DNA of 64,000 nt from Yoonia vestfoldensis SKA53 (GTDB lineage: Bacteria; Pseudomonadota; Alphaproteobacteria; Rhodobacterales; Rhodobacteraceae), in assembly GCF_000152785.1 (NCBI RefSeq), contig NZ_CH672414.1, positions 664,415 through 728,414 of the forward strand, read 5' to 3'. Both the position numbers and the translations under genes were made by a program. A model generated the notes under the pieces. It was not told the origin of the DNA. It did not search any database and saw only the letters and a program-made list of their open reading frames with translations. The number at the start of each line of letters is the position of its first letter. The stretch's first letter is position 1. Shown here piece after piece: positions 42,461 to 62,858 of this stretch.

Positions 42461-42550
42461 GGACAGGTGGCCGAGTGGTCGAAGGCGCACGCCTGGAAAG
42501 TGTGTAGGCGGGAGACCGTCTCCAGGGTTCGAATCCCTGTCTGTCCGCCA
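42461..42550 (+). tRNA. tRNA-Ser (anticodon GGA)
   Basis: A 90-nt class II tRNA with encoded CCA. The acceptor stem is GGACAGG/TCTGTCC with discriminator G73, the D-arm is GCCGAGTGGTCGAAGGC, and the anticodon loop CTGGAAA gives GGA. A long variable arm (GGCGGGAGACCGTC) is typical of serine. The T-arm is AGGGTTCGAATCCCT. Confidence 0.95.
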
Positions 42551-43801: not shown

Positions 43802-45553
43802 TTATGTCTGGTGGTGCGGTTGTTCTGCGCATTCTGTGAAAACGCGCTTGATGCAGCCTGCACAAATGCTCTGGTCAAGGTGTCGGACAGTGGCGCCAAT
43901 GGCATCTCCCTTGGAGATGTACAAGCAATCGGTGTCCAGTTCCTCCAGCACATGGAACCGGCGCAGGCATTCCAGCAGCGGCGGAAACAGCGCGACGATC
44001 CGAAATGTGCCGCCTTGGGCCCTGATCTCACGGATGGCATGAACAAGAAAATCGGCACCCGAAAGGTCGATCTTGCCCACGCCCTTGAGATAAAAGATCA
44101 CATGTATCTGTTTGGGCCGCTTTGCCCGCAGTGCCTGCCACTGAGCCTCGATATGTTCGACTGACCCAAAGTAAAGGGGTCCGTCAAGGCGCACTGATAC
44201 CAGTTGCAAACATTCTGGCACGCCGTGCAGGTCGGCGTTGCGAAACTTGCGACGACCCGATGCTGAAATCACTGGCGCACTGACGCGCAGTGATGGATGC
44301 GCGCTTTCATAAATGAATACCGAAAAGGATGCGATCACACCGACATAGATCGCGAAATCCAGCTCTAGCAAAAGGCCCGCACCCAACGTCAGCCCAAGGA
44401 TCAGTGTTTCGGGCCGCGAAGTTTGAACGATGTGCAGAATTTCCTTTTTGTCGATCAGCCGCCAAGCGACATAAATAATCAGGCCCGCCATAGCTGGTTT
44501 CGGAATAACGGTGATGTAGCTGCCAAGGGCCAGCAGGATCGCCGCTAAAAAAAGGCTGGAAAAGATTGCGGCAAGCGGGGTTCGCGCGCCCGATTGCTCG
44601 TTCACGCCCGACCGCGTGAACGAGCCTGACCCAGCATAGCAGCTGAAAAAACTGCCCACCGCGTTGGACAGGCCCTGAGCGATCATTTCCTGATTGGGGG
44701 CAAAGGGTTCCTTGCGCCGAATGGCAAAAGTGCGCCCGATCGAGATCGCCTCGAGCAGGCCGACAAGGGCGACCGCCGCCGCGCCAGGTGCCAACAGGGC
44801 AATGTCAGACCACTGGATCTGTGGCGACGACAGGCTGGGCAGGGCGGCTGGGATGGCGCCCAGCATTTCAACCCCGCGATTTGCGGCATCAGTCGCAACG
44901 GCAACGCCTGCTCCAACCCCTAGCGCAATCAGAAAACCTGGCAGCCGCGGGGCAAAAGCCTGACAGATTGCTACCGTCACCAAAGTGACCAGCGCAATCA
45001 TCACCGCGAAGAGGTTCACGTCACCCGCCATTGCCGCCACACGGTGGACCCGCTCGATCACATTGCCGCCCCCCGCTATGCTGACGCCAAGCATACCCGC
45101 AAGCTGGCTAACCGCGATCAGCAGCGCCGCTGCCGCCGTAAATGCGACGATAACAGAATGCGAAACAAAAGAGACAAGACCCCCCAACCGTGCGACACCA
45201 GCCAAGATCTGAAACAGCCCCACCAACAACGTCAGCAGCAGGGCAAGTTCGATGTAGCGCGCCGAACCAGCGGGCGCGATACCTTGCAGCGTCACGAAAA
45301 CCAGTGCCGAAATCGCCGTGGTAGGCCCTGAAACCATGACCATGGACGATCCAAACAGCGCGGCCACGATGGCCGTTACCATGGCGGTGTATAGGCCAAA
45401 TTCAGGCGGCAGTCCTGCAATCGTTGCAAAAGCAACCCCTTGCGGCAGGACGATCGCTGCGCCAGTCAGCCCCGCGAAAAGATCAGCCCTGATCGCAGAT
45501 GACGAAACACCGCGCAGCCATCGGCCCGCAGGAAACAGCGACAGGCGCTTCAT
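43802..45553 (-). CDS. SulP-family anion transporter with STAS domain
   Basis: The 583-residue protein has a SulP transport domain of about 12-14 helices (LTGAAIVLPQGVAFATIAG, SGPTTAISALVF, GSFFSCYAGSGSFTRSGVN) and a cytoplasmic STAS domain (about 440-560; FYLKGVGKIDLSGADFL). SulP proteins move sulfate, bicarbonate or dicarboxylates. The gene starts 1 bp after the sulfatase stop, last of the operon SDR-P450-sulfatase-SulP. Movement of sulfate released by the sulfatase is a reasonable inference, but import of another anion is equally compatible. Confidence 0.9.
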   Translation of the reverse strand: MKRLSLFPAGRWLRGVSSSAIRADLFAGLTGAAIVLPQGVAFATIAGLPPEFGLYTAMVTAIVAALFGSSMVMVSGPTTAISALVFVTLQGIAPAGSARYIELALLLTLLVGLFQILAGVARLGGLVSFVSHSVIVAFTAAAALLIAVSQLAGMLGVSIAGGGNVIERVHRVAAMAGDVNLFAVMIALVTLVTVAICQAFAPRLPGFLIALGVGAGVAVATDAANRGVEMLGAIPAALPSLSSPQIQWSDIALLAPGAAAVALVGLLEAISIGRTFAIRRKEPFAPNQEMIAQGLSNAVGSFFSCYAGSGSFTRSGVNEQSGARTPLAAIFSSLFLAAILLALGSYITVIPKPAMAGLIIYVAWRLIDKKEILHIVQTSRPETLILGLTLGAGLLLELDFAIYVGVIASFSVFIYESAHPSLRVSAPVISASGRRKFRNADLHGVPECLQLVSVRLDGPLYFGSVEHIEAQWQALRAKRPKQIHVIFYLKGVGKIDLSGADFLVHAIREIRAQGGTFRIVALFPPLLECLRRFHVLEELDTDCLYISKGDAIGATVRHLDQSICAGCIKRVFTECAEQPHHQT

Positions 45554-45554
45554 T

Positions 45555-47219
45555 TCAGGACGGCTGATCGGGGCGCGGCCTGCCGCGATAGAACTGCGTC
45601 ATCTCTTGCGGCAGGTCAGCCTCGTCATAGACGCCAAGTGTGATCCCCCGCATCGGCGAACGTCCGCGTTCCGTGATAATTTGCGCATCCGTGCGTGTGG
45701 TGCGCTGCGACAGGCGGCGCGCCCAGATTGCCAGGCGGTCATTCATTTGCGCGATGATGTCCCGATGTGCCGCGCTTTCGCCCAAATCGACATATTCTAA
45801 TGGGTCATTTTGCAGATCAAATAACTGGGGGCGCATGCCTTCGGCGTGCATGAACTTCCACCTCGCATCGGCAATCATGAACAGCCGCGCTGACGAAGGA
45901 TCTTTTGCCAGTTTCGACACTGCGGGGTTCATGGAATAGTCATATTCGCTTACAACGTAGTCGCGCCAGTCTGGCGTCTGCCCATGCAGCCAAGGCATCA
46001 GTGACCGACCTTCCAGAATATGTGGCCGCTCCGCGCCGCCCGCTACCTCTAGGAACGTTGGCGCCAGATCAATCGCCTCGACCAAGGCATCGCAGGTCGA
46101 ACCGCGAGTGACATCCGCTTGCGGACTGGGGTCGCGTATGATCAGCGGCACTTTTACCGACGGCTCGTGGAACAGGTCTTTTTCACCCATCCAGTGATCG
46201 CCCAGATAATCCCCGTGATCAGATGTCAGCACGATCAGCGTATCATCCCAGCGGCCAGTATCGCGCAGCCAAGCGAACAGCCGCCCCATCTGGTCGTCGC
46301 ATTGCTTGATCAGGCCCATATAGGCAGGGATCACCGCCTCTCGGACTTCGTCGCGGCTGAATGCCTTGCCGATGCGCCCGTCCATGAAGGCTTTGAAGAC
46401 TGGATGCGCTTCGGTCAGCTCGCGCTTGTGCCGCGCGACGGCAAGAACATGCTCTGGCCCATACATGTCGTTATAGGGCGCTGGTGCGATATAGGGCCAG
46501 TGCGGTTTGATATAGCTTAGATGCAGGCACCAAGGCGTATCGCCCGCCTGTTGCATGAATGCGATCGCGCGCGATGTCATATAGGGCGTTTCGCTGTCAT
46601 CCTCGCGGATCGCCGCTGCCTTGCGCGCATTCTTGAGAAACCACCCCGACGCCATTTCTTGGGGGTCGTCGTCCTTGCGGCCACTATTTGCAAAGTCGTG
46701 CCAAGGGTTGGCGCTGTGATAACCATTCTCGCGCAGCCAATCATTGTAGACAGCAGCGCCATATTTTTCATCATACAGGCCGTCTGGCCCCTCGGGGCGC
46801 ATACCGTCGTCGCGTTCCCAAACGTCGAAACCGCATTGTTCGACACGCGCACCGATGACGCTTTCGCGATCAATGCCCAGCCATGCCATACCCTCGTCGT
46901 CGGCCTTCATGTGGGTTTTTCCCACCAGCCAGCAATCCATTCCAGCATCGCGCAGATGGTCGCCGATCGTGCGTTCGCCAACCTTTAGCGGCACACGGTT
47001 CCATGTTGCGCCATGCGAATGTACATAGCGCCCTGTGTAAAAGCTCATCCGCGAGGCGCCGCAGACGGGCGACTGCACATATGCGCGGGTAAAACGCACT
47101 CCCTCGGCGGCCAGCGCATCGATATGCGGCGTTTGCAAATGTGGATGCCCAGCGCAGCTAAGGTAATCCCACCGAAGCTGGTCGAACATGATGAATAGAA
47201 TGTTTTTAGGCTTGCCCAT
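45555..47219 (-). CDS. Sulfatase (formylglycine-dependent, alkaline phosphatase superfamily)
   Basis: The 554-residue hydrolase has the metal motif FIMFDQLRWDYL and the formylglycine core CGASRMSFYTGRY with the convertible Cys53 (C-x-A-x-R). VGKTHMK and the second metal motif TSDHGDYLGDHWM follow. No signal peptide is present, so it acts in the cytoplasm, unlike many polysaccharide sulfatases; this favours a small imported substrate. Phosphonate monoester hydrolases share this fold and are an alternative. Start ATG 47219 overlaps the P450 stop by 1 nt. The maturing enzyme is not in the window. Confidence 0.9.
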   Translation of the reverse strand: MGKPKNILFIMFDQLRWDYLSCAGHPHLQTPHIDALAAEGVRFTRAYVQSPVCGASRMSFYTGRYVHSHGATWNRVPLKVGERTIGDHLRDAGMDCWLVGKTHMKADDEGMAWLGIDRESVIGARVEQCGFDVWERDDGMRPEGPDGLYDEKYGAAVYNDWLRENGYHSANPWHDFANSGRKDDDPQEMASGWFLKNARKAAAIREDDSETPYMTSRAIAFMQQAGDTPWCLHLSYIKPHWPYIAPAPYNDMYGPEHVLAVARHKRELTEAHPVFKAFMDGRIGKAFSRDEVREAVIPAYMGLIKQCDDQMGRLFAWLRDTGRWDDTLIVLTSDHGDYLGDHWMGEKDLFHEPSVKVPLIIRDPSPQADVTRGSTCDALVEAIDLAPTFLEVAGGAERPHILEGRSLMPWLHGQTPDWRDYVVSEYDYSMNPAVSKLAKDPSSARLFMIADARWKFMHAEGMRPQLFDLQNDPLEYVDLGESAAHRDIIAQMNDRLAIWARRLSQRTTRTDAQIITERGRSPMRGITLGVYDEADLPQEMTQFYRGRPRPDQPS

Positions 47220-49405
47220 CAGACGTCAAGAACCAGTGTTTTTGTCTTTGATCGGGAGCAACAGACGGTAATCTGCGCATTGGATGCCTTTTCCAGATCT
47301 GTTTGCACCATATCCCTATGGTCTGGCATCCCCTCCAGCACGCGGGTCAGGCAGGTGCCGCAGACCCCCGACTGGCAAGAAACCTGCACGGCGATGCTGT
47401 TTTCCGCCAACTTATGCGCAATCGTTTCGCCAGGCTGAACCACGAAGGTCTTGCCAGATTTCTTGGCAACCACGGTAAAGGGTGCGCCGTCGGTATTCAC
47501 CTCGGCGCCAAAATGCTCAAGGTGAATGGTGTCTTTGGTCCAGCCATGCGCATCAGCCGATCGCACGATGAAATCCATAAATCCATTTGGCCCGCAGACA
47601 TACAGGTGATGATCGTGCGCCGCATTGGACAGCACCGCGTTGATGTCAAGCTGCTGATCCTTGGTGCCGTCGTCGGTATGCAGATGCACTTTGCCGCCAA
47701 AGCGCGCCAACTCGTTCCGAAAGGCCAGACGGTCCAGAGTGCGCCCGCAATAATGCATTTCCCACGAGGCGCCAGAGCGTTCCAGCGCATAGGCCATGCC
47801 GAGCATCGGCGTGATACCAATGCCGCCCGCGAACAAAATCGTATGGCCTGCATCCGCGATAAGCGGGAAACTGTTACGCGGCCGACCGATGCGAATTTTT
47901 GCGCCCTGTTGGAACTTGGCATGGATCGCCGCCGAACCGCCCCGCGAATTGGGGTCCAGCAGGATGCCCAGCCGGTATTTCATGCGATCAGCAGGATCAC
48001 CCGTCAGGGAATACTGCCGGATCAAACCAGATTTCACATAGACATCCACATGCGCGCCCGCGTCATATGCGGGCAGGGGCGATCCATCGGGACTGTGCAA
48101 TTCAAGGCTGATAATATCCGTGGCCGCGGCTGTGCGTGTGGCGATCGTGACGTCCAACCACGGGCTGGCGGCATCAATGCGGTCTGCGTCATGCAACACT
48201 TGGTCGCCCAAATGCACCCGAACTGGCATTGTGGCATAGCCCCTGATGGAATTGTTCAGAGCGATCTGGGGCGCTGCGGTCAATTCGAAACGTGCAACGC
48301 GGCGGCGCAGCGCCCGCACCAAGCTTTGCATCTCAAGTCGGGCCAGATGCATACCCATGCACATATGCACCCCCTGACCAAAGCCGACATGATCATGCAC
48401 GTCGCGCGTGATGTCAAAACGCGCGGGGTCGGGGTATTTGTTCGGGTCACGGTTGGCCGACGCGAACATCACCAACACACGGCAGCCTTGGGGCAACAGA
48501 TGACCCGCCAATTTGCTGTCTTCGGCGACATAGCGGGTCCATCCGCGCACGGGCGCTGCGATGCGCATGGATTCTTCGATGGCATTGGCAATTAATTCGG
48601 GGGTGTCGCGCAGTTTCTGCCATTGATCGGGGTTTTCAGCAAAAAGACGGATCAACTGCCCCGAAACCGAAATTGTCGTGTCCAAGGACGGGTTGATGTA
48701 ATCGCGCATCAGCTGCGCGCAGGTTTCAAAGCTGATGCCGCGTTCGGGGCCGACCTCGAAAATGCGCTTGGCCCAGCCCCCATCCATCAGTTTTTCAGGG
48801 CGGCCATATTCAATCAGGAAATCGCGCAGATCCTTGAGGTCCTCAAACGCTTCTTTTGTCCGCGCGTTGTCGGCACCGAACAGGTTGAACGTTGCCGAGG
48901 CCCATTTGAGCATCTGCGCGCTATCCACCACTGGCGGCAGGCCGACTAATTCGGCAACGATTGTCACGGGCAGGAAACGCGCGAAATCGGCGATCGCGTC
49001 AAACTCGCGGCGCTGGCAAAGTGTATCGACCAACCCGTCAGCCGCGTTCTGGATACGGCCTTCGACCTCTTTTAAGGCACCGGGCAACAGCGGCTCAGAG
49101 GTGATGGCGCGCGTGCGGTCATGCGCTGGTGGATCAGAATTCAGCGTCGAGCCGATCAAGATATCGTTCACCTTTTGCAGTGGCGATACCCCGCGCGCAT
49201 TCGAATAACGCAGCGGTTGGCGCAAAACTTCGCTGACTTCGCGATAGTTTGGCAATGCGTATAGATCATGCTTTTCAAGATAGACGACTGGACCCAAGGC
49301 ACGCAGTTCTTCGTAAACGGGATAGGGGTCGCTGATTGACGCGTCAGAATAGAAATCTATCGCAGAAACAGGGATGGCCTTTGTGGCCTGATCTATCTTG
49401 TTCAT
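47219..49405 (-). CDS. Self-sufficient cytochrome P450: CYP199-like heme domain fused to reductase and 2Fe-2S ferredoxin
   Basis: The 728-residue fusion has a P450 domain (about 1-400; SDPPAHDRTR, FASANRDP, heme loop VGFGQGVHMCMGMH with Cys349). A phthalate-dioxygenase-type reductase (about 415-635; RQYSLTGDP, nucleotide motif FAGGIGITPMLGM) follows, then a plant-type 2Fe-2S domain (Cys677, 682, 685, 715 in CQSGVCGTC and TVCC). Domain order equals CYP116B self-sufficient enzymes, but the heme part looks like CYP199, the 4-methoxybenzoate O-demethylase family. The I-helix reads NPSLDTT, lacking the usual A/G-G pair. It overlaps the SDR stop (ATGA). Confidence 0.9.
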   Translation of the reverse strand: MNKIDQATKAIPVSAIDFYSDASISDPYPVYEELRALGPVVYLEKHDLYALPNYREVSEVLRQPLRYSNARGVSPLQKVNDILIGSTLNSDPPAHDRTRAITSEPLLPGALKEVEGRIQNAADGLVDTLCQRREFDAIADFARFLPVTIVAELVGLPPVVDSAQMLKWASATFNLFGADNARTKEAFEDLKDLRDFLIEYGRPEKLMDGGWAKRIFEVGPERGISFETCAQLMRDYINPSLDTTISVSGQLIRLFAENPDQWQKLRDTPELIANAIEESMRIAAPVRGWTRYVAEDSKLAGHLLPQGCRVLVMFASANRDPNKYPDPARFDITRDVHDHVGFGQGVHMCMGMHLARLEMQSLVRALRRRVARFELTAAPQIALNNSIRGYATMPVRVHLGDQVLHDADRIDAASPWLDVTIATRTAAATDIISLELHSPDGSPLPAYDAGAHVDVYVKSGLIRQYSLTGDPADRMKYRLGILLDPNSRGGSAAIHAKFQQGAKIRIGRPRNSFPLIADAGHTILFAGGIGITPMLGMAYALERSGASWEMHYCGRTLDRLAFRNELARFGGKVHLHTDDGTKDQQLDINAVLSNAAHDHHLYVCGPNGFMDFIVRSADAHGWTKDTIHLEHFGAEVNTDGAPFTVVAKKSGKTFVVQPGETIAHKLAENSIAVQVSCQSGVCGTCLTRVLEGMPDHRDMVQTDLEKASNAQITVCCSRSKTKTLVLDV

Positions 49406-50214
49406 TCGGCCATTTCCTTTTCGGGCAGGCGCAGACCGTGTAGGTCCATCAGGTCGGCCTGGTTGAATGCACCCATCCCCCCATCGATAGCGATATCGGT
49501 TCCCTTGATCCAGTTCGATGCAGGCGACAGCAGGAATGCGGCAATCTTGGCGATTTCGTCGGGGCGCCCTGGGCGACCGGCCCGCGCGACGTTGCGAGCC
49601 ATTTTCGCGCCGAACGCTCTTTGGAAATCGCCAAGGATGCCAGTGGCAATGCCACCTGGGCTAAGCGAGTTGATCCGAAAGCCGCGGTTCACAATCGTCT
49701 CGGCTTCGGCAAGGGTCCACAGGATAACCGCCTCTTTGGTCAGATTGTAACAGCGCGTGGCGTCAAGTTTTTCGTCAACAATAAATTGCGCCAGCTGATC
49801 ACGGCGTTTTAGCCGCCCCAAGCGTTTGACCTGTTCGACACCATCGCGCCAACCGTGGCCTGCGCGGCTGGCCATATTAATAATCGAGGCATCGGGGCGC
49901 AGCAACGGCAAAACAGCATATGTCAATGCGCGCGTTCCAAGGAAATTGACTTGTAGGATCGTTTCCTCCAGCCCGTCACGCGGCGGCAGGCCCGCGTTAT
50001 TGCACAGCCCATCCAGCGGTTCGCTGATCGCTTGGGCCGCCTGTTGAATACTGTCGGCATCATTCAGGTCCAGCGGGATAAAACGGTCGATATTTTCGAC
50101 GGTGTGCTGAATGTCAAAACCGATCACTCGGTGGCCTTGGGCGGTCAGAATGCGGGCAAGTTCCGCACCGATACCACTTGCAACGCCAGTCACTGCGTAG
50201 GTCAGCTGCTGCAT
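49402..50214 (-). CDS. Short-chain dehydrogenase, coniferyl-alcohol-dehydrogenase-like
   Basis: The 270-residue SDR has the NAD motif TGVASGIG, LCNNAGL, and catalytic YNLTKEA with Ser in NMASRAG. The C-terminal pattern (CYNLTKEAVILWTLAEAE, SPGGIATGI) resembles CalA-type coniferyl alcohol dehydrogenases and 3-alpha-hydroxysteroid dehydrogenases. It would oxidise an aryl alcohol to an aldehyde, a step before the aldehyde dehydrogenase encoded at 54223. It is the first gene of the minus-strand operon, divergent from the LysR gene with a 93-bp spacer. Confidence 0.85.
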   Translation of the reverse strand: MQQLTYAVTGVASGIGAELARILTAQGHRVIGFDIQHTVENIDRFIPLDLNDADSIQQAAQAISEPLDGLCNNAGLPPRDGLEETILQVNFLGTRALTYAVLPLLRPDASIINMASRAGHGWRDGVEQVKRLGRLKRRDQLAQFIVDEKLDATRCYNLTKEAVILWTLAEAETIVNRGFRINSLSPGGIATGILGDFQRAFGAKMARNVARAGRPGRPDEIAKIAAFLLSPASNWIKGTDIAIDGGMGAFNQADLMDLHGLRLPEKEMAE

Positions 50215-50307
50215 GAATTACCCTCCCAAATTGTGGGCAATCTATTGGCGGCAGGCCTATCAAGAATAGACTTGAAAAAGCGCTACGTATTTGATCTGCT
50301 TATCACC
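50215..50307. promoter_or_regulatory. Divergent promoter region with inverted repeat, SDR operon and LysR gene
   Basis: The 93-bp spacer contains TCTATT (50241-50246) and AATAGA (50265-50270) as an 18-bp-spaced inverted repeat, and further AT-rich elements. LysR proteins usually bind such a divergent spacer and control the adjacent operon. The repeat is only 6 bp, so this is a candidate. Confidence 0.35.
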
Positions 50308-51207
50308 ATGAAGGTGCAGCACATCCAGATCCTTGTCGCGATTGCCGAACACGGCAGTCTGCGCGGCGCAGCCAAGGCGCTTGGGAAATCGCAGCCCGCG
50401 ATGACGCAGGCATTGCGCCAAGCCGAAGATGATTTGGGCGTTTCGATTTTCGCGCGCACGTCGCGCGGCGTAGAGCTGACCGAGGTGGGCGAGCGTGTTC
50501 TGGTGCGTGCCCGAACCATTACCTCGGAAATTAATCGTCTTGACGAAGAAGTCACGCAACTGCGTGGTGAACAGGCTGGCGCAGTGCATGTGTGCGTATC
50601 ACCCTTGGCGGCGGTGCGGATCATGCCGCGGGCGCTGACCTTGTTTCGCAAGACCCATCCAAAGATCGACGTGCGCCTGACCAGCGGCCTGTTTCCCGGC
50701 GCCCTGAAACCGCTGCGTGAAGGGCGCACTGATATTGTGATCGGTCCAGCCCCGCCCGCAGGCATGCTGCGCGAGATTGCGATTGAACATTTGGTCGATA
50801 CACCTATTCAGGTGATCACAGCGGCAAATTCGCCCCTTCTATCTGCACGATCACTGGGCGATCTGGCCGAGGCGCAATGGATCATGATTGGCGCGCCAAC
50901 TGGACCGGGCGATATTTTCCGGCAGCCGTTTCTGGACCATGGATTTGCGCCACCGCACGCGACAACCACATCCGAGTCATACTTTGGCGCGCTTGCCCTT
51001 GTCGAAAGCCTTGGGGCTGTCTGCACCTTTCCCCAATTGCTGTTGGATGATGTGCAAAAGACATGGCGCATTGCGCCAATCCCCATCCAAGAAACGATCA
51101 CGCCGTTAAAAATATCGCTCATGACGCGGGCAGGGCACCCGCTGACACCTGCGGCCGATGCACTGGCGAATTGTATTCGCCGTCGGGCATCGTCGATATT
51201 GCGATAA
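50308..51207 (+). CDS. LysR-family transcriptional regulator
   Basis: The 299-residue regulator has an N-terminal winged helix (HIQILVAIAEHGSLRGAAKALGKSQ, shortened; SQPAMTQALRQAEDDLG) and a periplasmic-binding-like effector domain (about 90-295). The ATG at 50308 is the standard start; the frame stays open upstream but is antisense to the SDR gene. Its placement between the SDR-P450-sulfatase operon and the TRAP-aldehyde dehydrogenase genes suggests it senses the imported aromatic substrate and controls both. Confidence 0.9.
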   Translation: MKVQHIQILVAIAEHGSLRGAAKALGKSQPAMTQALRQAEDDLGVSIFARTSRGVELTEVGERVLVRARTITSEINRLDEEVTQLRGEQAGAVHVCVSPLAAVRIMPRALTLFRKTHPKIDVRLTSGLFPGALKPLREGRTDIVIGPAPPAGMLREIAIEHLVDTPIQVITAANSPLLSARSLGDLAEAQWIMIGAPTGPGDIFRQPFLDHGFAPPHATTTSESYFGALALVESLGAVCTFPQLLLDDVQKTWRIAPIPIQETITPLKISLMTRAGHPLTPAADALANCIRRRASSILR

Positions 51208-51324
51208 GCTAGATAGATCGCGATCAGAGAATTGGCTTTGATCATTATCGCCGATCAGGGTTATCACACCCCAGCAGAAGGTGCGGGAGGTGCCTTCTAA
51301 CTCACTAAGGGAGGAGGCCCCACA

Positions 51325-52359
51325 ATGATCACACGCAAATCGCTTTTTGCTTCGCTTTTAGCTGCCAGCGCTTTGGCTGGACCTGCTGCATCACAAACCG
51401 AATTGACATTCAATATATTCTTTCCGCAAACGCATTTTGCATGGCCAGTGTTTCAGGCGTGGGCGCAGGATATCTCGGCAGCGACCAATGGGCAGGTCAG
51501 CATCGCATTTCCACCGCAATCCGTCGCGCCGCCGCCAGGCATCGTCGATGCGGTGCGCAACGGCGTGGCGGACGGTGGCTTCATCTTTAACGGGTTCATC
51601 GGCCAGCAGTATCCTGGCACGATGTTGACGCAAATGCCGTTCATTGATTTGGGCAACAGCGAGGCGATGTCGGTTGCTTTTTGGGAAACCTATCAGGAAC
51701 ATTTCCTAGGGGTCGAGGATGTGCGCGGCGTGAAAATGCTGTCGGGGTTCCATCTTGGGCCGACGTATCTGTGTTCCACGACCGATGCACCGATCACAAC
51801 GATCGCAGACTTACAGGCGCGGCGCGTTTGGGCACTGCCTGGCACCATCGCCGACACGCTGGCAGCGATGGATCTGGCGATCACCGCGTCACCAGCGGTG
51901 CAACTACAGGAATTGACGTCGCGCAACACTGTTGATGCGCATCTGGGCGTGACCATGGAAACGATCGTCGCCTTCGGCGCGGCACCCTATACGAAATCTT
52001 GTGTTGAAATGGCCCCCGCACTGCAATCGGCCAGCTTTTCGATCTTTTTCAACCAGCGTAGCTGGGATCGGCTGTCAGACGAACACCGCGACGCAATCAC
52101 GCAATTGTCGGGTTCGGCGCTGGCCGCACGCCTTGGCGCGGCGACCGACGTAGCAGACGATGAGGCGCGCACCCAGCTAGAAGCGATGGGCGTCAGCTTT
52201 GCACCGATCGACGCTAATCTGCTGGCGGAAATGCAGGCGGCATCATCCAGCGTTGCGCTATCTTGGTCCGAGGCGCTGAACGCGGCCTATGATCTGGATG
52301 GCATGGAGCTCATCGCGAAAACCCGCGACCGCGTCGCACAGGTGTCTGCCAACGAATGA
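51325..52359 (+). CDS. dctP: TRAP transporter substrate-binding protein, DctP family
   Basis: The 344-residue protein has a signal peptide (about residues 1-23, cleaved near AAS-QTE), then the DctP fold (FFPQTHFAWPVFQAWAQDI; VRNGVADGGFIFNGF; ALPGTIADTLAAM). A very strong ribosome-binding site, GGGAGGAGG, precedes ATG 51325. It binds the substrate in the periplasm for the DctQM permease encoded next. Position beside aromatic genes suggests an aromatic carboxylate or related acid; the usual conserved Arg needed to bind a carboxylate cannot be assigned with certainty. Confidence 0.92.
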   Translation: MITRKSLFASLLAASALAGPAASQTELTFNIFFPQTHFAWPVFQAWAQDISAATNGQVSIAFPPQSVAPPPGIVDAVRNGVADGGFIFNGFIGQQYPGTMLTQMPFIDLGNSEAMSVAFWETYQEHFLGVEDVRGVKMLSGFHLGPTYLCSTTDAPITTIADLQARRVWALPGTIADTLAAMDLAITASPAVQLQELTSRNTVDAHLGVTMETIVAFGAAPYTKSCVEMAPALQSASFSIFFNQRSWDRLSDEHRDAITQLSGSALAARLGAATDVADDEARTQLEAMGVSFAPIDANLLAEMQAASSSVALSWSEALNAAYDLDGMELIAKTRDRVAQVSANE

Positions 52360-52365
52360 TGTTCT

Positions 52366-52390
52366 TGCGGTGCCGCCTTGCGGCACCGCA
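52366..52390 (+). promoter_or_regulatory. Perfect 11-bp hairpin between dctP and dctQ
   Basis: TGCGGTGCCGC (52366-52376) and GCGGCACCGCA (52380-52390) form a perfect stem with a 3-nt loop. It begins 7 nt after the dctP stop and has no T-run. Such intercistronic stems in binding-protein operons stabilise the upstream message and partially end transcription, so that binding protein exceeds permease. Confidence 0.75.
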
Positions 52391-52413
52391 GCCAGCATCC
52401 GCATAAGGGGGGC

Positions 52414-52902
52414 ATGATGCGCATAATCCGCAGATTTACAGTTTTGCTTGGCGCAGTTTGCCTTGTCGCAATGACTGTCTTGACATGCGCCGAGGTCGTG
52501 ATGCGATACGCCTTTCACAGCCCGATCTTTGGATCGGCCGAGATGATCCAAATGCTGCTGGGGATCTTGGTGTTTTCGGGTATGTTCGCTGTCACCCGCG
52601 ATCGCGGCCATGTCAACGTATCGCTGTTTGAACCCTTTTTGCTGCGGCATTTCCGGCGCTTGTATCGCAGCATCTTTGACGTCATGACCCTTGTCGGGGT
52701 CGTCGCCATCTTTGGCATACTGGGCTGGCGGACGTGGGATCTGACTCATTACCCCGAAACCAGCGTGGTGCTGCGCCTTGAGATGATCTGGATCATCGGG
52801 GCCATGGCCGCTCTGGCGGGATTGGCCATCGTCGCGGCCCTTGCCGCCATGGCAGATGAACGTCGGAACACACCGCCACATTCCCCCCAAGATTATGAAT
52901 AG
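52414..52902 (+). CDS. dctQ: TRAP transporter small permease subunit, DctQ family
   Basis: The 162-residue protein has four TM helices with the DctQ pattern (LTCAEVVMRYAFHSPIFGSAEM, shortened; MLLGILVFSGMFAVTRDRGHVNV). ATG 52414 or 52417 are the candidate starts, behind AAGGGGGGC; an in-frame TTG at 52378 lies inside the hairpin. The protein joins DctM in the membrane. Its stop is 11 bp before dctM. Confidence 0.88.
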   Translation: MMRIIRRFTVLLGAVCLVAMTVLTCAEVVMRYAFHSPIFGSAEMIQMLLGILVFSGMFAVTRDRGHVNVSLFEPFLLRHFRRLYRSIFDVMTLVGVVAIFGILGWRTWDLTHYPETSVVLRLEMIWIIGAMAALAGLAIVAALAAMADERRNTPPHSPQDYE

Positions 52903-52913
52903 AAAGTCTTGCC

Positions 52914-54209
52914 ATGGAACTTGCTCTTCTCGGCTTTGCGATCCTGCTGTTTTTGGCCTTCATTGGCGTCCCCCTTGCCTTTGCAACGCTGGCTGTGGGC
53001 TTTTTTGGCCTGATGTATCTGCGCGGCTTTGATGCGGCCCTGTCTGTCTCGTCGCAATGGATCGTCGATACCTCGATCAATTATCATCTTTCGATCATTC
53101 CGCTGTTCGTGCTGATGGGGGCGTTTATCCACCGTTCTGGCATCAGCAAGGACCTGTTCGACGCTTCTTATGCTTGGTTCGGGCGGTTTCGTGGCGGCCT
53201 TGCGCTGTCGGGGATCCTGTCCTGTGCGGGTTTTGCCGCTGTCTGCGGATCATCGCTAGCCACCGCGGCGACAATGACGCGGGTTGCGGTGCCGCCGATG
53301 CGTGCATTCAAATACAATGACGGCTTTTCCGCAGGCACAATCGCGGCAGGCGGCACTCTGGGCATCATGATCCCGCCATCTGTGCCACTGGCAATCTACG
53401 GCATCGTCGCTGGTCAAGACATCGGCCTGTTGTTCATCGCAGGCATCCTGCCGGGAATCTTGCTGATCTGCCTGTTCATGCTAGCCGCCTATATCGTGAC
53501 GGCGATCCGCCCCGATTTTGGGCCCGCAGGCAAGGCTATGGGCCTGAGAGAGACACTGCGCGCATCCACCGCGACATGGCCGGTGATCATTCTTTTCGGC
53601 ATCGTGCTTGGCGGTATCTACACGGGTATCTTTACCCCAACCGAGGCCGCGGGGGTGGGATGCGCGGGCGCGTTTTTGTTCGGTCTGGCGCGCGGCCATT
53701 TCATGGATCGTCAAAGCCTGTGGGCCGTATTTTCCGAGACGGTCACAACGACAGCGATGATCTTTGCCATCGTCTTTTCGGCCCTTGTGTTGGCGCAATT
53801 CGTCAATCTCACGGGGATGCCTTATGACTTGCAGGCGTTAATCTTGGGCTGGGAATTGGGCCCGATCGGGCTGGTCCTGATGATCTGCGGAATCTGCGTG
53901 CTGCTTGGCATGGTGTTTGAGTCAATTGGCATTCTATTGCTGATCATTCCCGTTTTTCTGCCGTCGCTGGATGCGCTTGGCGTAGACCTGATCTGGTTTG
54001 GTATCCTTGTCATCATCGTGATCGAACTTGGCCTGATTTCGCCCCCGATCGGGATGAATGTTTTCACTGTGAAATCGGTCGCCCCCGAGATTCCGCTTGG
54101 GTCAATCTTTCTGGGGGTGTCCCCCTATATCGTGGCGATGGTGATTGGCGGTGTGCTGATCATCTTGTTCCCGCAGATTGCCACGCTGCTACCCCAAGCG
54201 ATGAGATAA
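52914..54209 (+). CDS. dctM: TRAP transporter large permease subunit, DctM family
   Basis: The 431-residue Na+-coupled permease has about 12-13 TM helices. Typical DctM segments are present: FIGVPLAFATLAVG at the start, GGTLGIMIPPSVPLAIYG, FTPTEAAGVGCAGAFL and LISPPIGMNVFTVKSVAPEI (last motif shortened). It completes the dctP-dctQ-dctM set. The aldehyde dehydrogenase gene begins 13 bp downstream and is very likely in the same transcript. Confidence 0.94.
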   Translation: MELALLGFAILLFLAFIGVPLAFATLAVGFFGLMYLRGFDAALSVSSQWIVDTSINYHLSIIPLFVLMGAFIHRSGISKDLFDASYAWFGRFRGGLALSGILSCAGFAAVCGSSLATAATMTRVAVPPMRAFKYNDGFSAGTIAAGGTLGIMIPPSVPLAIYGIVAGQDIGLLFIAGILPGILLICLFMLAAYIVTAIRPDFGPAGKAMGLRETLRASTATWPVIILFGIVLGGIYTGIFTPTEAAGVGCAGAFLFGLARGHFMDRQSLWAVFSETVTTTAMIFAIVFSALVLAQFVNLTGMPYDLQALILGWELGPIGLVLMICGICVLLGMVFESIGILLLIIPVFLPSLDALGVDLIWFGILVIIVIELGLISPPIGMNVFTVKSVAPEIPLGSIFLGVSPYIVAMVIGGVLIILFPQIATLLPQAMR

Positions 54210-54222
54210 GGCAGTTTTGACC

Positions 54223-55698
54223 ATGACCGACATTGTTGAAACGCAGCTGTATATCAATGGCGCGCCCTGCGCGGCATCGGACAGGGGCTTTTACGATATC
54301 TTCAACCCTGCGCGCCCCGCAGAACTGGTCGGCCGCGCCGCCGCTGGCACGCCGCAGGATGTCGATCGCGCGGTAAAGGCAGCTCATGCTGCATTCCCAG
54401 CTTGGGCGGCGCTAAGCTACGCCGAGCGTGCCGACATACTGCGTAAGGTTGCCGCCGCAATCACCCAAGACATGGCCGAGGTCGAAACCCGTGCGCGCCT
54501 GTTTACCCGTGAACACGGCAAGATACTGCGCGAAACACATCTAGAAATCAGCCGCCTTGGCGAACGCTTTATCCAGTCGGCCAACTATGCCGCGCGTCTG
54601 GCCGAGGACGAGATCATCCGCGCCGCGCCGAACGATACGATCATCACCCGCCAGCCACGCGGCGTTGCCGCGCTGGTGGTGCCATGGAACTGGCCGCTGG
54701 CCATTCTGGGGGCAAAATTGCCGCAGGCGCTGATGGCAGGGAATACGGTGGTGGTAAAACCTTCGGCGAATTCGGCGCTGGCACCAACGATGACGCTGCA
54801 CAAGATCGCCGCCTTGCTGCCCCCTGGGGTGGTGAACATCCTGACAGGCTCGGCCAGTCGGATTGGCGATGCGATCATCGGGCATCCGCTGGTGCGTTAC
54901 GTGAATTTCACAGGCTCGGTCGATGTTGGCCGTCATGTGATGAAGGTCGCGGCCGAAAACATCACGCCCGTCACGCTAGAGCTTGGCGGAAATGACGCTG
55001 GCCTGATCCTGCATGATGCCGATTTGTCAGGCGATGCCTTTGATCGTCTTTATCGGGCGGCTTTTATGTCCACAGGGCAAATCTGCTACGCGCTTAAGCG
55101 GCTTTATGTGCACAGGTCCCGCTTTGAACAGGTCGTCGCGGGCCTGAGCGCGGTGCTAGACGCACAAATTGTGGGCGACGGCCTGTTGCCAGAAACGACG
55201 ATGGGTCCGATGAATAATGCCAAGCAATTAAAGGTCGTCACCGATATGATCGCCGAGGCCCGCGCCAAAGGGCAGAGCGTGGTCGAGCTGGGCCAAATTG
55301 CCGATCCGGATCTTTATGCGCAAGGTCACTTTCAGCGCCCTACGCTGGTCATCGACGCTGACCCAAGGCTGTCGGTGGTGCGGCATGAACAGTTTGGGCC
55401 AGTGCTGCCAATCTTGCCCTTTGACGACGAACAGACGGCGATCAACATGGCCAATGACGACCAATTTGGCCTTGCATCGTCGGTGTGGTCGGCTGACGTT
55501 GATCGCGCAATCAAGCTCGCGCGGGGGATCGAGGCGGGCTATTCGTTTATAAATGCCCATGGTCCTTCGGCGCAGGATGGCAACGGGCCGTTCGGCGGAT
55601 TCAAGCAATCGGGAATTGGCCGTAACTTTGGCTATGAAGGCGTGATCCAGTTTCAAGGGTACCATTCAATCGCTGGGGCACCTGGCACGTTGGTCTAG
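54223..55698 (+). CDS. Aldehyde dehydrogenase family protein
   Basis: The 491-residue NAD(P)-dependent enzyme has VPWNWPLAILGAKLPQAL, the cofactor motif FTGSVDVG, the general base Glu in LELGGNDAG, and the nucleophile Cys288 in STGQICYAL. It resembles aromatic or betaine-type aldehyde dehydrogenases. ATG 54223 is preferred to an in-frame TTG at 54217. It follows dctM by 13 bp, so it probably oxidises an aldehyde from the SDR step or formaldehyde-like products of P450 demethylation. A 3' duplicate fragment follows immediately. Confidence 0.92.
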   Translation: MTDIVETQLYINGAPCAASDRGFYDIFNPARPAELVGRAAAGTPQDVDRAVKAAHAAFPAWAALSYAERADILRKVAAAITQDMAEVETRARLFTREHGKILRETHLEISRLGERFIQSANYAARLAEDEIIRAAPNDTIITRQPRGVAALVVPWNWPLAILGAKLPQALMAGNTVVVKPSANSALAPTMTLHKIAALLPPGVVNILTGSASRIGDAIIGHPLVRYVNFTGSVDVGRHVMKVAAENITPVTLELGGNDAGLILHDADLSGDAFDRLYRAAFMSTGQICYALKRLYVHRSRFEQVVAGLSAVLDAQIVGDGLLPETTMGPMNNAKQLKVVTDMIAEARAKGQSVVELGQIADPDLYAQGHFQRPTLVIDADPRLSVVRHEQFGPVLPILPFDDEQTAINMANDDQFGLASSVWSADVDRAIKLARGIEAGYSFINAHGPSAQDGNGPFGGFKQSGIGRNFGYEGVIQFQGYHSIAGAPGTLV

Positions 55699-55700
55699 GC

Positions 55701-55802
55701 GGGTTCAAGCTATCTGGCATTGGGCAGGATTTCGGGTATGTAGGCGTGGTACAGTTTCAGGGCCACCATTCGATTGCCGCAGGCCTGGGAAAGCTTGTCT
55801 AG
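55701..55802 (+). pseudogene. 3' fragment of a second aldehyde dehydrogenase gene
   Basis: The 34 codons right after the aldehyde dehydrogenase stop read GFKLSGIGQDFGYVGVVQFQ and then GHHSIAAGLGKLV-stop. They match the C-terminus of the preceding gene (GFKQSGIGRNFGYEGVIQFQ then GYHSIAGAPGTLV) with about 70 percent identity. The rest of this copy is absent. The arrangement suggests two tandem paralogues that recombined or replaced one another, leaving this tail. It has no start codon and is not expected to be translated. Confidence 0.85.
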
Positions 55803-55829
55803 CAGCGCAAAGTGGAACGGGATGCAGCC

Positions 55830-56885
55830 ATGACGAATGCCTTTACGACATCGGGTTTATTTGGCGGGCTGCTGTGCGATCCCGCGATTGCGCAGGAATT
55901 TGACGCTCCCGCCTTTACTGCGCGGATGCTGGCCTTCGAAGCGGCATGGACGCAGGCGCTTGGGACGTGCGGTGTCGTTCCAGCGGATGACGCAGAAACA
56001 GCATTGACGGCAATCAAGGCGTTTTCAAATCACACCCTAGGGCAGGGCAGCGACCGTGATGGTCTGCCTGTTCCGGATTTGGTGGCCGCACTGAAATCAG
56101 ACCTAAGCAGTAGTGCTGCCCGCGCAGTTCATACGGGTGCGACCAGTCAGGATGTGATCGACACGGCGATGGTGCTGACGTGTCTTGCCGTGATGGACCG
56201 CTTGACAGACCGGTTGCACCGCGTGATTGCGGCGCTTGAATCCGTTCTGGCCCGCTTTGGCGATGCACCCCTGACCGCGCGCACAAGGATGCAGGCCGCT
56301 TTGCCTGCCACAATTGCACTGCGGGTTGCTGCGTGGCGGCGGCCTTTGGCAGACCATCTGGCGCGGGCGGTTGACGTGCGAGCGCAGCTTGCCTTTGTTC
56401 AGATCGGCGGGCCCATCGGCACCCGCGAAATGCCGCAGATCCATGTCGCGGAATGTGCGGGCAGGGTGGCGGCAACGCTGGGCCTGTCGCTTGGTCCTGT
56501 CTGGCATACAGATCGTAGCCGGATCATTGCCTTGGGTCACTGGCTGGCGCTGGTGGCTGGATCACTTGGCAAGATCGGGCAAGATGTGGCGTTGATGGCC
56601 CAGCAAGGCGTCGATGAAATATCGCTGTCCGGTGGTGGCGTGTCGTCTGCGATGGCACATAAACAGAACCCTATCGGCGCAGAGATGATGGTTGCGCTGG
56701 CGCGCTATGTTGCTGGGCAGCAGGGAATTCTGGGTCAGGCGATGATCCACGAACAAGAACGATCTGGTGCGGCTTGGGCGTTGGAATGGTTGACCCTGCC
56801 CGCCATGGCAGAGGCGACAGGTGCCACGCTGAACCACGCCGAAAGCCTGATTGCGTCGATCGAAAGGATTGGCATACCGGACTGA
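55830..56885 (+). CDS. pcaB: 3-carboxy-cis,cis-muconate cycloisomerase
   Basis: The 351-residue fumarase-superfamily enzyme turns carboxymuconate into gamma-carboxymuconolactone. The signature is GGGVSSAMAHKQNPIGAEMM, with GATSQDVIDTAMVL and QIGGPIGTR upstream. ATG 55830 (MTNAFTTSGLFGGLL) is preferred to ATG 55812. Slightly short compared with 450-residue PcaB, it matches the shorter alphaproteobacterial form. It is on the plus strand, convergent with the main pca operon and co-oriented with the aldehyde dehydrogenase genes, and ends 24 bp from pcaJ. Confidence 0.92.
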   Translation: MTNAFTTSGLFGGLLCDPAIAQEFDAPAFTARMLAFEAAWTQALGTCGVVPADDAETALTAIKAFSNHTLGQGSDRDGLPVPDLVAALKSDLSSSAARAVHTGATSQDVIDTAMVLTCLAVMDRLTDRLHRVIAALESVLARFGDAPLTARTRMQAALPATIALRVAAWRRPLADHLARAVDVRAQLAFVQIGGPIGTREMPQIHVAECAGRVAATLGLSLGPVWHTDRSRIIALGHWLALVAGSLGKIGQDVALMAQQGVDEISLSGGGVSSAMAHKQNPIGAEMMVALARYVAGQQGILGQAMIHEQERSGAAWALEWLTLPAMAEATGATLNHAESLIASIERIGIPD

Positions 56886-57536: not shown

Positions 57537-58230
57537 TATGCGACCCTCACTGTGCGTTGTTCGATGCGCTTTTCATGTTCGCCTTGCACGATGCGATGCA
57601 CGTAGATGCCGGGCAAATGGATGCTGTCGGGATCAAGGCTGCCGGTGGGCACGATCTCTTCGACCTCGACCACACAGACCTTACCGCACATGGCGGCAGG
57701 CGGGTTGAAGTTGCGGGCCGTCTTGCGGAACACCAGATTGCCGGTCTCGTCGGCTTTCCACGCCTTCACGATCGACAGATCGGCGAAGATACCTTCCTCC
57801 AGAATATAGGTCTGGCCGTTGAAATCCTTGTGTTCTTTGCCCTCGGCGATGACGGTACCAACGCCTGTCTTTGTATAGAAACCAGGGATACCGCAGCCGC
57901 TGCGCGCATCCGTTCGGCCAAAGTGCCTTGGGGGTTGAATTCAAGCTCGAGTTCGCCGGACAGATACTGGCGCATGAATTCGGCGTTCTCGCCCACATAG
58001 GAACTGATCATCTTCTTGACCTGACGGGTCTGGAGCAAGATTCCGATGCCGAAATCATCCACGCCTGCGTTGTTGGACGCAAAGGTCAGATCCCTGGTGC
58101 CCGCGTCCCTGATCGCAGACAACAACAATTCGGGGATACCGCACAGGCCAAACCCGCCTGCCGCAATGAACATGCCGTCATGCAAAAGACCATCAAGGGC
58201 CGCAGCGGCATTGGGGTAAATCTTTTTCAT
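57536..58230 (-). pseudogene. pcaI: 3-oxoadipate CoA-transferase subunit A, apparent 1-nt frameshift
   Basis: The N-terminal part (ATG 58230; MKKIYPNAAAALDGLL, FIAAGGFGLCGIPELL) runs in one frame to ...GTLAERMRA, then changes to nonsense. From near 57893-57905 the correct continuation (GCGIPGFYTKTGVGTVIAEG, then ADLSIVKAWKADETGN to the end at 57536) lies in another frame. Deletion of one base in the GCAGCGGCTGCGG stretch explains this. Without it the protein would be about 231 residues, the normal length. It could be a real inactivating mutation, programmed slippage or an assembly error. It overlaps BKACE by 4 nt. Confidence 0.88.
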
Positions 58231-59063
58231 GCGGCTACCTTTTTCAGACCAAGAATGTCGCGTGCCTGCTGCCATGTGGCGACGGGGCGTTCGTATTTTT
58301 CGCATAAATCAACCGCCCGCCGCACCAGCGCGGCATTGGACGGTGCAAGGGTATTGCGATCAAGGCGCACATTATCTTCCAGCCCCGTGCGGGTGTGCCC
58401 GCCCTTGGCGATCGCCCATTCGTTGATGGTCAGTTGCGCGGGCCCGATACCTGCCGCACACCATTGCGCATCTGGCGCCAGGCGCTTGAGCGTTTCGATA
58501 TAGAAATCGAAAATCACCTCGTCCGCAGGCATGGAATTTTTCACCCCCATCACGAATTGGACGTAAAGCGGGGTTTTCAGGCGGCCATCGGCGGCCATGC
58601 GCGTGGCTTGGACGATATGGCCCAGATCAAAGGCTTCGATTTCGGGTTTCACATCATGTGCGATCATTTCGGACGCCAGCCAGTCCACCAGATCGGGGCT
58701 GTTTTCATAGACGCGGGTGGGAAAGTTGTTCGACCCGACCGACAGTGAGGCCATATCAGGCGAAAGGGGCAACATCCCGCCGCGTTCGCGCCCCGACCCA
58801 GAGCGCCCGCCGGTGGAAAGCTGCACGATCATGCCGGGGCAGTGTTTTTCAATGCCTTCTTTGAGCCGCGCAAAGCGTTCGGGGTCCGATGTGGGTTTGC
58901 CGTCATCGTCGCGGACATGGCAGTGGGCGATGGTCGCACCTGCTTCAAAGGCTTCTTGCGTGCTTTCGATCTGTTCGGAAATGGTGATCGGCACAGCGGG
59001 GTTGTTGGCTTTGGTGGGCAGTGATCCTGTGATCGCTACGCAGATGATGCAGGGGTTTGTCAT
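58227..59063 (-). CDS. Beta-keto acid cleavage enzyme (BKACE, DUF849 family)
   Basis: The 278-residue TIM-barrel metalloenzyme has the DUF849 pattern: AGATIAHCHVRDDDGKPTSD (metal His pair), VQLSTGGRSG, EIEAFDLGHIV and QFVMGVKNSMPAD. BKACE enzymes split beta-keto acids with acetyl-CoA to acetoacetate and a CoA ester. Inside a pca operon the natural substrate would be beta-ketoadipate, giving succinyl-CoA and acetoacetate. ATG 59063 is chosen for MTNPCIICVAITGS; upstream in-frame sequence is pcaG antisense noise. It overlaps pcaI (ATGA) and follows pcaG by 7 bp. Confidence 0.9.
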   Translation of the reverse strand: MTNPCIICVAITGSLPTKANNPAVPITISEQIESTQEAFEAGATIAHCHVRDDDGKPTSDPERFARLKEGIEKHCPGMIVQLSTGGRSGSGRERGGMLPLSPDMASLSVGSNNFPTRVYENSPDLVDWLASEMIAHDVKPEIEAFDLGHIVQATRMAADGRLKTPLYVQFVMGVKNSMPADEVIFDFYIETLKRLAPDAQWCAAGIGPAQLTINEWAIAKGGHTRTGLEDNVRLDRNTLAPSNAALVRRAVDLCEKYERPVATWQQARDILGLKKVAA

Positions 59064-59070
59064 CGCAACC

Positions 59071-59688
59071 TCAAATATCGAAAAAGATGGTTTCAGCCGG
59101 CCCTTGCAGGTGGATGTCGAAACGATAGAGGCCAGCGGCCTCTTTTTTTGCCAGCAGGGTGGGTACACGGTTTTGATGTTCGATCCGGCTTAGAACAGGA
59201 TCAGCGGCATTCGCCACCTGTTCATCGTCAAAGTAAATCCGCGTGTGCAGGCCGATGTTGATCCCGCGTGCAACGATCCACGCTGTGATATGCGGTGCCT
59301 GCATACGGCCATCGGGATAGGGGACCGCGCCGGGCTTGACAGTGTCAAAGGTGAATTCGCCGGTTTCCATGTCGCCGGGCGACCGCCCCCAGCCGGTAAA
59401 GTTCGGGTCGGGTGTTCCGCGCGTCTCATTGGCAGAGGGAAACAGCCCCGCCGCATCCGGTTGCCAGATTTCGATCATGGCGTCACGCAAGGGTGCGCCC
59501 ATACCGTCGAAAACGGTGCCTTTGATCGTGATCTCGGTGCCCTGAACGGGGCCGGTTTTCATGGATGTCCCCAGATCGCCACCATAGATGTCGATGCCGG
59601 TAAAGTTGGGCGTGCAGCCGATGTGAACATAGGGGCCAGCGGTTTGGCTGGGGCTTTCGCGCAGGTAGTCGTGCAGTTTCTGGACCAT
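59071..59688 (-). CDS. pcaG: Protocatechuate 3,4-dioxygenase alpha subunit
   Basis: The 205-residue alpha subunit has GPYVHIGCTPNF, the central GAPLRDAMIEIWQPDAAGLF and TVKPGAVPYPDGRMQAPHI, and ITAWIVARGINIGLHTRIYF-type strands (shortened). It packs with PcaH to form the intradiol-cleaving dioxygenase; iron ligands are in PcaH. The start is 2 bp after the pcaH stop and the stop 7 bp before BKACE. Confidence 0.94.
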   Translation of the reverse strand: MVQKLHDYLRESPSQTAGPYVHIGCTPNFTGIDIYGGDLGTSMKTGPVQGTEITIKGTVFDGMGAPLRDAMIEIWQPDAAGLFPSANETRGTPDPNFTGWGRSPGDMETGEFTFDTVKPGAVPYPDGRMQAPHITAWIVARGINIGLHTRIYFDDEQVANAADPVLSRIEHQNRVPTLLAKKEAAGLYRFDIHLQGPAETIFFDI

Positions 59689-59690
59689 GC

Positions 59691-62764: not shown

Positions 62765-62813
62765 TTCATTCTCCCGAAAATGTCCCCTTTGATAGCATGT
62801 TTGTATCGACATT

Positions 62814-62837: not shown

Positions 62838-62858
62838 GTTATCGAAAAAGGAATGAAT

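Follow-up and report, generated by a model that had tools for sequence, protein, structure and literature searches.

What is the function of the nine genes which stand beside the 4-hydroxybenzoate genes of Yoonia vestfoldensis SKA53? The window analyzed here is a stretch of 64,000 nucleotides from this genome (G000; 3.07 Mb in 3 contigs), and the nine genes occupy its positions 43802..55698. They encode a short-chain dehydrogenase/reductase (SDR), a cytochrome P450, a sulfatase, a SulP permease and, in the other direction, a LysR regulator, a TRAP transporter and an aldehyde dehydrogenase (ALDH). The original prediction, made from the DNA alone, had taken this set for a possible pathway for sulfated or alkoxylated aromatics. 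On balance we favor a catabolic module in which a para-substituted aryl sulfate would be converted to 4-hydroxybenzoate and passed through PobA and the Pca enzymes to central metabolism. The pathway class, aryl sulfate to 4-hydroxybenzoate, is held with slightly more confidence than this module. The actual compound is tentatively taken as p-cresyl sulfate, which is favored because it is the simplest compound that would use every enzyme once; this is a chemical argument.

All nine open reading frames are intact and their families are backed by Pfam and NCBIfam, which confirmed the gene set with its divergent LysR-TRAP-ALDH arm:

43802..45553, minus strand, SulP-family anion permease with STAS (PF00916, 305 bits; PF01740; TIGR00815, 329 bits, under its cut-off of 380)
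45555..47219, minus strand, SpAS2-type sulfatase with CGASR nucleophile motif (PF00884; closest PDB chain 4upl, 825 bits)
47219..49405, minus strand, self-sufficient P450 of 728 aa: CYP199-like heme domain (about 1-400) and phthalate-dioxygenase-type reductase (about 415-728); Pfam P450, NAD-binding and 2Fe-2S domains
49402..50214, minus strand, SDR, probable aryl-alcohol dehydrogenase (NCBIfam PRK12428, coniferyl-alcohol dehydrogenase, 243.1 bits, cut-off 242)
50305..51207, plus strand, LysR-type regulator (Pfam, NCBIfam)
51325..52359, plus strand, TRAP solute-binding protein DctP (PF03480), near aromatic-acid receptors, with Trp at the carboxylate-binding Arg site
52417..52902, plus strand, TRAP small permease DctQ (PF04290)
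52914..54209, plus strand, TRAP large permease DctM (PF06808; TIGR00786 above cut-off)
54217..55698, plus strand, ALDH (PF00171, 432 bits)

The left arm (SDR, P450, sulfatase, SulP) forms a tight operon, and the right arm (LysR, DctP, DctQ, DctM, ALDH) runs divergently from it across 90 nt of intergenic space between LysR and SDR. Gene ends were said to overlap by 1-4 nt through the whole left arm; direct reading found this at SDR/P450 (4 nt, ATGA) and P450/sulfatase (1 nt, TGATG), but the sulfatase and SulP genes are separated by a 1-nt gap. The neighbors of the cluster are pcaB, pcaJ, 3-oxoadipate:acetyl-CoA acetyltransferase (BKACE), pcaG, pcaH, pcaD, pobA and pcaQ, and NCBIfam models agree with the claimed adjacency of pobA-pca genes.

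In the proposed route the TRAP transporter would take up the aryl sulfate anion, the cytoplasmic arylsulfatase would strip the sulfate, and SulP would perhaps move the released sulfate, in a direction that the genes only suggest. The fused CYP199-like P450 would hydroxylate the para-methyl (benzylic) carbon, the SDR would oxidize the resulting aryl alcohol and the ALDH the aldehyde, after which 4-hydroxybenzoate would pass to PobA and then to the Pca enzymes.

The P450 is a single chain of 728 residues in which a heme domain is joined to a reductase resembling phthalate dioxygenase reductase. Among solved P450 structures, those most similar to the heme domain alone are CYP199A2, CYP199A4 and PbdA, and of the 18 sequences listed for it at E 1e-60 the named ones are CYP199 and the others are labelled only as cytochrome P450. 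P450 families are named at more than 40% identity; this level is not reached for CYP199, as the identity to CYP199A4, the member measured, is 36.2% (139 of 384 aligned residues). A plasmid search with the P450 gave a best full-length match of 35.9%, in Cupriavidus necator N-1, among the matches listed (40 of 108 records). The enzyme has one CYP116B-like trait, the fusion to a C-terminal phthalate-family reductase, and CYP116B membership was considered and rejected, as the heme domain alone gives no CYP116B entry at E 1e-60 and CYP199 entries come first. Because the heme domain is CYP199-like, this self-sufficient fusion probably arose separately from CYP116B.

The pocket was compared in the 27 fusions, out of 34 fusion loci described below, which could be aligned over the region. 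All 27 carry RDYINPSLDTT. In the window and in 27/27 the Ser244 of CYP199A4 is replaced by Asp, and Arg92 and Ser95 fall in an alignment gap; Ala248 becomes Pro in the fusions, and the Asp251-Thr252 pair is kept. Most members have Arg or Lys where CYP199A4 has Gln203, and Arg243 is retained; the alignment near 203 runs through a loop and is unsure. The matching anchors of PbdA (Arg84, Ser87, Ser237) are reported to bind the carboxylate, and their mutation to weaken binding about tenfold (PMC11530827). Since these carboxylate anchors are lost, the enzyme appears CYP199-like but not built for benzoate in the manner of PbdA, and a role as para-methoxybenzoate demethylase was rejected, or at least weakened, on these residues. 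No S244D variant of CYP199A4 was found in the literature searched. Among standalone relatives at 39-51% identity, 11 of 13 share RDY..PSLDTT (L046 and L050 differ), and the motif is absent from two other rows at 31-33% (L041, L047).

To see how far the arrangement recurs, we refer to a pattern-based scan of one genome per species (84,980 species), which may have missed loci. Of the 38 loci that it yielded, 34 carry the whole or a part of the fusion (L069-L102), one has a standalone P450 (L103) and three match in the reductase only (L104-L106). The 34 fusion loci represent 33 genomes, as L096 and L102 share one, and L100, from a Roseicyclus metagenome-assembled genome (MAG), is nearly the window itself (99-100% over matched genes). 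By their titles the hosts are Rhodobacteraceae, Granulosicoccus, Polaromonas, other Burkholderiales, Marinobacterium and Thiotrichaceae, thus Alpha-, Beta- and Gammaproteobacteria; many are MAGs and some may be mis-binned. Among the matches listed for 394 family genomes, with at most two candidates scored in each, the fusion appears at high identity only in G000 and G027. An SDR of at least 54% identity directly precedes the P450 in 24 of the 27 loci having the P450 start and preceding DNA, the exceptions being L080 (SDR of only 41%), L082 and L095 (none). The pairing is not due to chance, because it recurs in 24 loci at this identity, and the co-occurrence beyond the strain by which the original prediction was to be tested is therefore present. 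An ALDH match (at least 64%, whole or partial) occurs in 12/34 loci.

Genes for sulfate esters, belonging to two sulfatase groups or to an arylsulfotransferase-type (ASST) protein, were found in 16 of the 34 loci. SpAS-like sulfatases lie in L069, L071, L072, L078, L079, L083, L087, L089, L090, L093, L094 and L102; those of L083, L087, L089, L090 and L093 are only 45-53% identical, and that of L083 is 7 kb away. The other sulfatase type is present in L077 and, by similarity to the L077 protein, in L101. ASST-type proteins occur in L074 and L078, and L080 has a fragment without a Pfam match of its own; L073 ends in a 63-residue piece of a sulfatase, which the count omits. The ASST fold is supported for the proteins of L078, L074 and L045, which have several conserved His motifs. 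The 31 fusion genomes (about 127 Mb) have 60 SpAS-like matches; chance would place one in about 1% of 22-kb loci, and linkage was observed in 10/31 (binomial p 5e-13). Genome-wide, the sulfatase is found in 27/31 fusion genomes and in 135/293 other family genomes (Fisher p 7e-6), a comparison which is only supportive as the two samples differ in taxonomy. A tree of 47 sulfatases, 19 of them P450-linked, requires 6 changes between linked and unlinked labels, at least 5 of them on well-supported branches; the changes may be losses or gains, most unlinked rows were assessed from 1.5-kb flanks, and the long branches L087 and L083 are unsure. From this tree the sulfatase was likely recruited to the P450 locus more than once.

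Standalone P450 loci show similar neighbors: a sulfatase directly follows the P450 in G176 and faces it in G142, in G370 the P450 comes after the second sulfatase type, and an ASST-type gene is divergent in G201 (L046, L048 and L050 were viewed with 1.5-kb flanks only). The SpAS-like sulfatase was rejected as a general marker, since none of 28 other family loci shows this P450 (L006, L008-L033, including L012 beside pca genes; 1.5-kb flanks read), and a copy on the Sulfitobacter THAF37 plasmid has sugar-uptake and other neighbors. Two further features were seen near the fusion. A flavin monooxygenase (PRK08132 above cut-off) follows it in Sulfitobacter (L099:12227-13834), perhaps as another branch for the same phenol; and in L073, L076, L081 and L099 the neighbors of SDR-P450 are an ABC transporter set and a LysR gene, three of these four also having a polysaccharide-deacetylase-like protein.

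Where would the product go? pobA is present in 28/31 fusion genomes and also in 198/295 family genomes; because it is so common in the family, its linkage and not its mere presence is the evidence. In Sulfitobacter L074 the order is pcaQ<>pobA-pcaH-pcaG-ASST-SDR-P450, and in Granulosicoccus L102 it is P450-sulfatase-DctPQM-sulfatase-pcaQ<>pobA-pcaD. In the genomes of L070 and L097 (Granulosicoccus MAGs) a sulfatase heads a one-strand set; L107 has sulfatase-pcaB-pobA-pcaD-pcaH-pcaG-BKACE on one strand, and in L108 the end of an ALDH precedes the sulfatase. As fusion or sulfatase sets are thus linked to pobA-pca in Sulfitobacter and Granulosicoccus, 4-hydroxybenzoate is the likely pathway product. 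The predicted link of a sulfated-aromatic pathway to pobA-pca gains support from the recurrence of sulfatases or ASST by the P450 and from the sulfatase lying on one strand with pobA-pca in two Granulosicoccus MAGs.

The remaining enzymes fit an aromatic substrate with some reservation. The SDR, a probable aryl-alcohol dehydrogenase by its profile, exceeds the PRK12428 cut-off by a marginal 1 bit or so, and its sole solved relative listed is 3alpha-hydroxysteroid dehydrogenase. The nearest folds of DctP are mainly aromatic-acid receptors, with cinnamate, coumarate, caffeate, ferulate and 4-hydroxyphenylacetate as ligands. The conserved Arg of TRAP receptors is reported to bind the carboxylate (PMC3610893); this residue (Arg147 of SiaP) is aligned to Trp in the DctP of the window and in those cluster DctPs that were compared, and Arg was seen only in the DctP of L058, a reductase-only locus. 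With a P450 lacking the benzoate anchors and a receptor lacking the carboxylate-binding Arg, the aryl-ether or methoxybenzoate half of the original prediction lost ground.

The sulfatase resembles SpAS2 over its full length (825 bits over residues 5-548), its closest PDB chains being 4upl (SpAS2) and 4upi (SpAS1), and no signal peptide was seen by eye. SpAS2 is reported to favor p-nitrophenyl sulfate over the corresponding phosphate by a factor of more than 10,000 in kcat/KM (PMC12421950). The nucleophile motif of the sulfatase in the window is CGASR, which departs from the CxPxR of FGE; CGSSR or CGPSR occurs in other rows. SpAS-like sulfatases are found in 137/295 family genomes, 52 of those 137 having no PF03781 match. 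In G271 an FGE-family gene directly adjoins pobA (G271:C24:507665-509690).

Several observations weigh against the proposed module. Eighteen of the 34 loci have no sulfate-ester gene, though some contigs are short, which counts against sulfate in every version; 4/31 fusion genomes gave no SpAS-like sulfatase, and the standalone P450 loci L112, L113, L114 and L118 show no sulfatase in the available flanking DNA. L088-L090 have a different ALDH (29-32%), with ABC, TAXI or TctC systems in place of TRAP, and therefore different loci may act on different substrates. The sulfatase also lies near pobA without the fusion (4.8 kb in G290, 0.1 kb in G084), which could reflect use of 4-sulfooxybenzoate. 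The Granulosicoccus pobA, from MAG records, is about 86% identical to that of the window; transfer or mis-binning from Rhodobacteraceae is possible and the phylum span is unsure. SulP is nearly private to the window: an ortholog near the fusion P450 was found only in Gemmobacter L094 (78%; 1/34 loci besides the window), so that SulP was rejected as a conserved part of the cluster, and the SulP that follows the standalone P450 in L103 is a different one. The maturation of the sulfatase is left unexplained by the profile matches of its own genome, which has neither an FGE-family (PF03781) nor an anSME (TIGR03942) match. Maturation independent of FGE is plausible, because E. coli is reported to modify such sulfatases via an unidentified enzyme (PMC5870055).

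Some of the alternatives are variants within this class and others are true rivals; confidence in them overlaps and does not sum to one. The P450, SDR and ALDH might act while the sulfate is still attached, on p-cresyl sulfate and the sulfated alcohol and aldehyde, the sulfatase freeing 4-hydroxybenzoate from 4-sulfooxybenzoate just before PobA. Desulfation would come last in this order, as is suggested by the sulfatase standing between ALDH and pobA (ALDH-sulfatase-pcaB-pobA in L108, sulfatase-pcaB-pobA in L107), by the sulfatases near pobA in G084 and G290, which have no CYP199-like fusion among the matches listed, and by the Arg or Lys at position 203 with the kept Arg243. An analogy comes from the cre pathway for p-cresol of Corynebacterium glutamicum, where a kinase puts phosphate on and a phosphatase takes it off, CreJ acts on the ester p-cresyl phosphate, and later steps lead to 4-hydroxybenzoate. 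CreH, CreI, CreJ and CreD are described as an oxidation system derived from p-cresol degradation (PMC9549646). Asp244, by contrast, favors a neutral phenol as the P450 substrate (desulfation first) and would repel an anion; the loop near 203 is unsure, and the 18 loci without a sulfate-ester gene count here too. Oxidation of the sulfated compounds is nevertheless a real possibility, if a somewhat doubtful one. A bolder variant takes sulfate as a removable handle, with the P450 acting only on sulfated phenols; sulfate could replace the carboxylate in the pocket because p-cresyl sulfate is nearly as long as 4-methoxybenzoate. Where an ASST-type gene is in the locus (L074, L078, L080), sulfate would be passed from the oxidized product to the next phenol and reused, and elsewhere the sulfatase would free it at the end; we consider this very unlikely.

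It is also conceivable, though rather unlikely, that the cluster serves another aryl sulfate (sulfated 4-hydroxybenzyl alcohol, algal or seagrass phenolics, 4-sulfooxybenzoate), the P450 acting on a side branch or ring substituent. This would suit the names or titles of several hosts, which are marine (Granulosicoccus, Amylibacter cionae, Sulfitobacter), the variety of transporters between loci and the flavin monooxygenase after the P450 in L099; a benzyl alcohol or benzoate, however, would not need the P450, which keeps its SDR, the P450 being the gene used to find the loci. An O-demethylating P450 acting on a methoxylated aromatic (4-methoxybenzoate, anisyl or coniferyl alcohol), with the sulfatase serving another purpose, is improbable. 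The nearness of its heme domain to CYP199A2/A4 and PbdA, the demethylation of para-methoxybenzoates reported for PbdA (PMC11530827), the 1-bit pass of the SDR to the coniferyl-alcohol dehydrogenase model and a route likewise ending at 4-hydroxybenzoate would agree with it, and the pocket does not speak against a neutral methoxy compound; the Asp at 244 in 27/27 fusions and the unaligned Arg92/Ser95 loop oppose it, and it leaves the recurring sulfatase or ASST unexplained. There may, finally, be no single pathway, the sulfatase scavenging sulfur or detoxifying while merely co-transcribed, and the linkage reflecting regions rich in catabolic genes. The cluster does lie in lower-GC DNA starting at a tRNA-Ser, and the sulfatase family is common (the 137/295 above), but linkage far above expectation, the involvement of unrelated sulfate-ester enzymes and, with its difference in taxonomy, the 27/31 against 135/293 comparison (p 7e-6) make this quite improbable.

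Returning to the aryl sulfate module, each part has known relatives, and what is new is the combination together with the P450 and receptor pockets. The CYP199A and PbdAB systems (Rhodopseudomonas, Rhodococcus jostii RHA1) provide the nearest solved P450s, with Asp251-Thr252 in common; PbdA relies on a cognate reductase encoded separately, PbdB (PMC11530827), whereas here the reductase is fused, the identity to CYP199A4 is the 36.2% given above, and Arg92 and Ser244 are lost. CYP116B enzymes (P450 RhF, CYP116B46) likewise combine a P450 and a phthalate-family reductase in one chain (PMC11889516) and differ in the heme domain. In the cre system CreJ is reported to oxidize the alkyl group of para-alkylphenols (PMC9549646), with the separate redox partners CreE and CreF, whereas here the sulfate would arrive on the substrate. 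SpAS1 and SpAS2 of Silicibacter pomeroyi are the closest sulfatases among PDB chains, and the gene here differs in belonging to a putative pathway. The nearest DctP folds include those of aromatic-acid TRAP transporters, the group of TarPQM, whose conserved Arg (PMC3610893) is Trp here. The p-cresol route of Rhodococcus opacus 1CP was rejected as a model because its gene set is different: it is reported to begin with hydroxylation by a predicted p-nitrophenol monooxygenase and to use meta cleavage, GcoAB-like genes also being induced (PMC13101518). In the open-access literature searched, no description of this gene set or of a bacterial route from aryl sulfate to 4-hydroxybenzoate was found. 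Sulfated phenols come from animals, seagrasses and algae and reach water, p-cresyl sulfate being a common animal product. If the module holds, it would explain the physiological use of some of the SpAS-like sulfatases that are widespread in the family. It would also set apart two protein groups, self-sufficient P450s whose pocket is distinct and TRAP receptors for non-carboxylate aromatics, and provide a marker gene set for aryl sulfate turnover at sea.

The genomic setting is probably that of a variable region. GC content is 0.56-0.58 in 4-kb steps from 40 kb onward against 0.59-0.63 earlier, and synteny with the same-genus genome G294, the only one searched, ends at 42550, the last base (3' end) of tRNA-Ser(GGA) (42461-42550). 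The cluster probably sits at an island site beside this tRNA; a 10-kb stretch across from the break in G294 had no match in the SKA53 genome, so the far end of the island was not located. Ten further neighbor genes gave by Pfam no clue to the substrate. The features between the cluster and the end of the pca genes are as follows:

55701..55802, plus strand, C-terminal remnant of a second ALDH copy (33 in-frame residues like the ALDH end, then a stop), between ALDH and pcaB
55812..56885, plus strand, pcaB (NCBIfam PRK05975, 401 bits, cut-off 371)
58227..59168, minus strand, BKACE (NF053568, 499 bits, cut-off 350)
59071..60686, minus strand, pcaG and pcaH, protocatechuate 3,4-dioxygenase (TIGR02423, TIGR02422 above cut-off)
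60807..61598, minus strand, pcaD (TIGR02427 above cut-off)
61595..62812, minus strand, pobA, 4-hydroxybenzoate 3-monooxygenase (TIGR02360, 687 bits, cut-off 539)
62853..63779, plus strand, pcaQ regulator (TIGR02424 above cut-off)

The pcaI gene (57681-58305) looks frameshifted, as its frame ends near 57900 and an overlapping frame continues, which may be a pseudogene or a sequencing error; the adjoining BKACE gene may do its job. A second pobA, 89% identical to the one beside the cluster, is present in the same genome (G000:C1:163012-164178).

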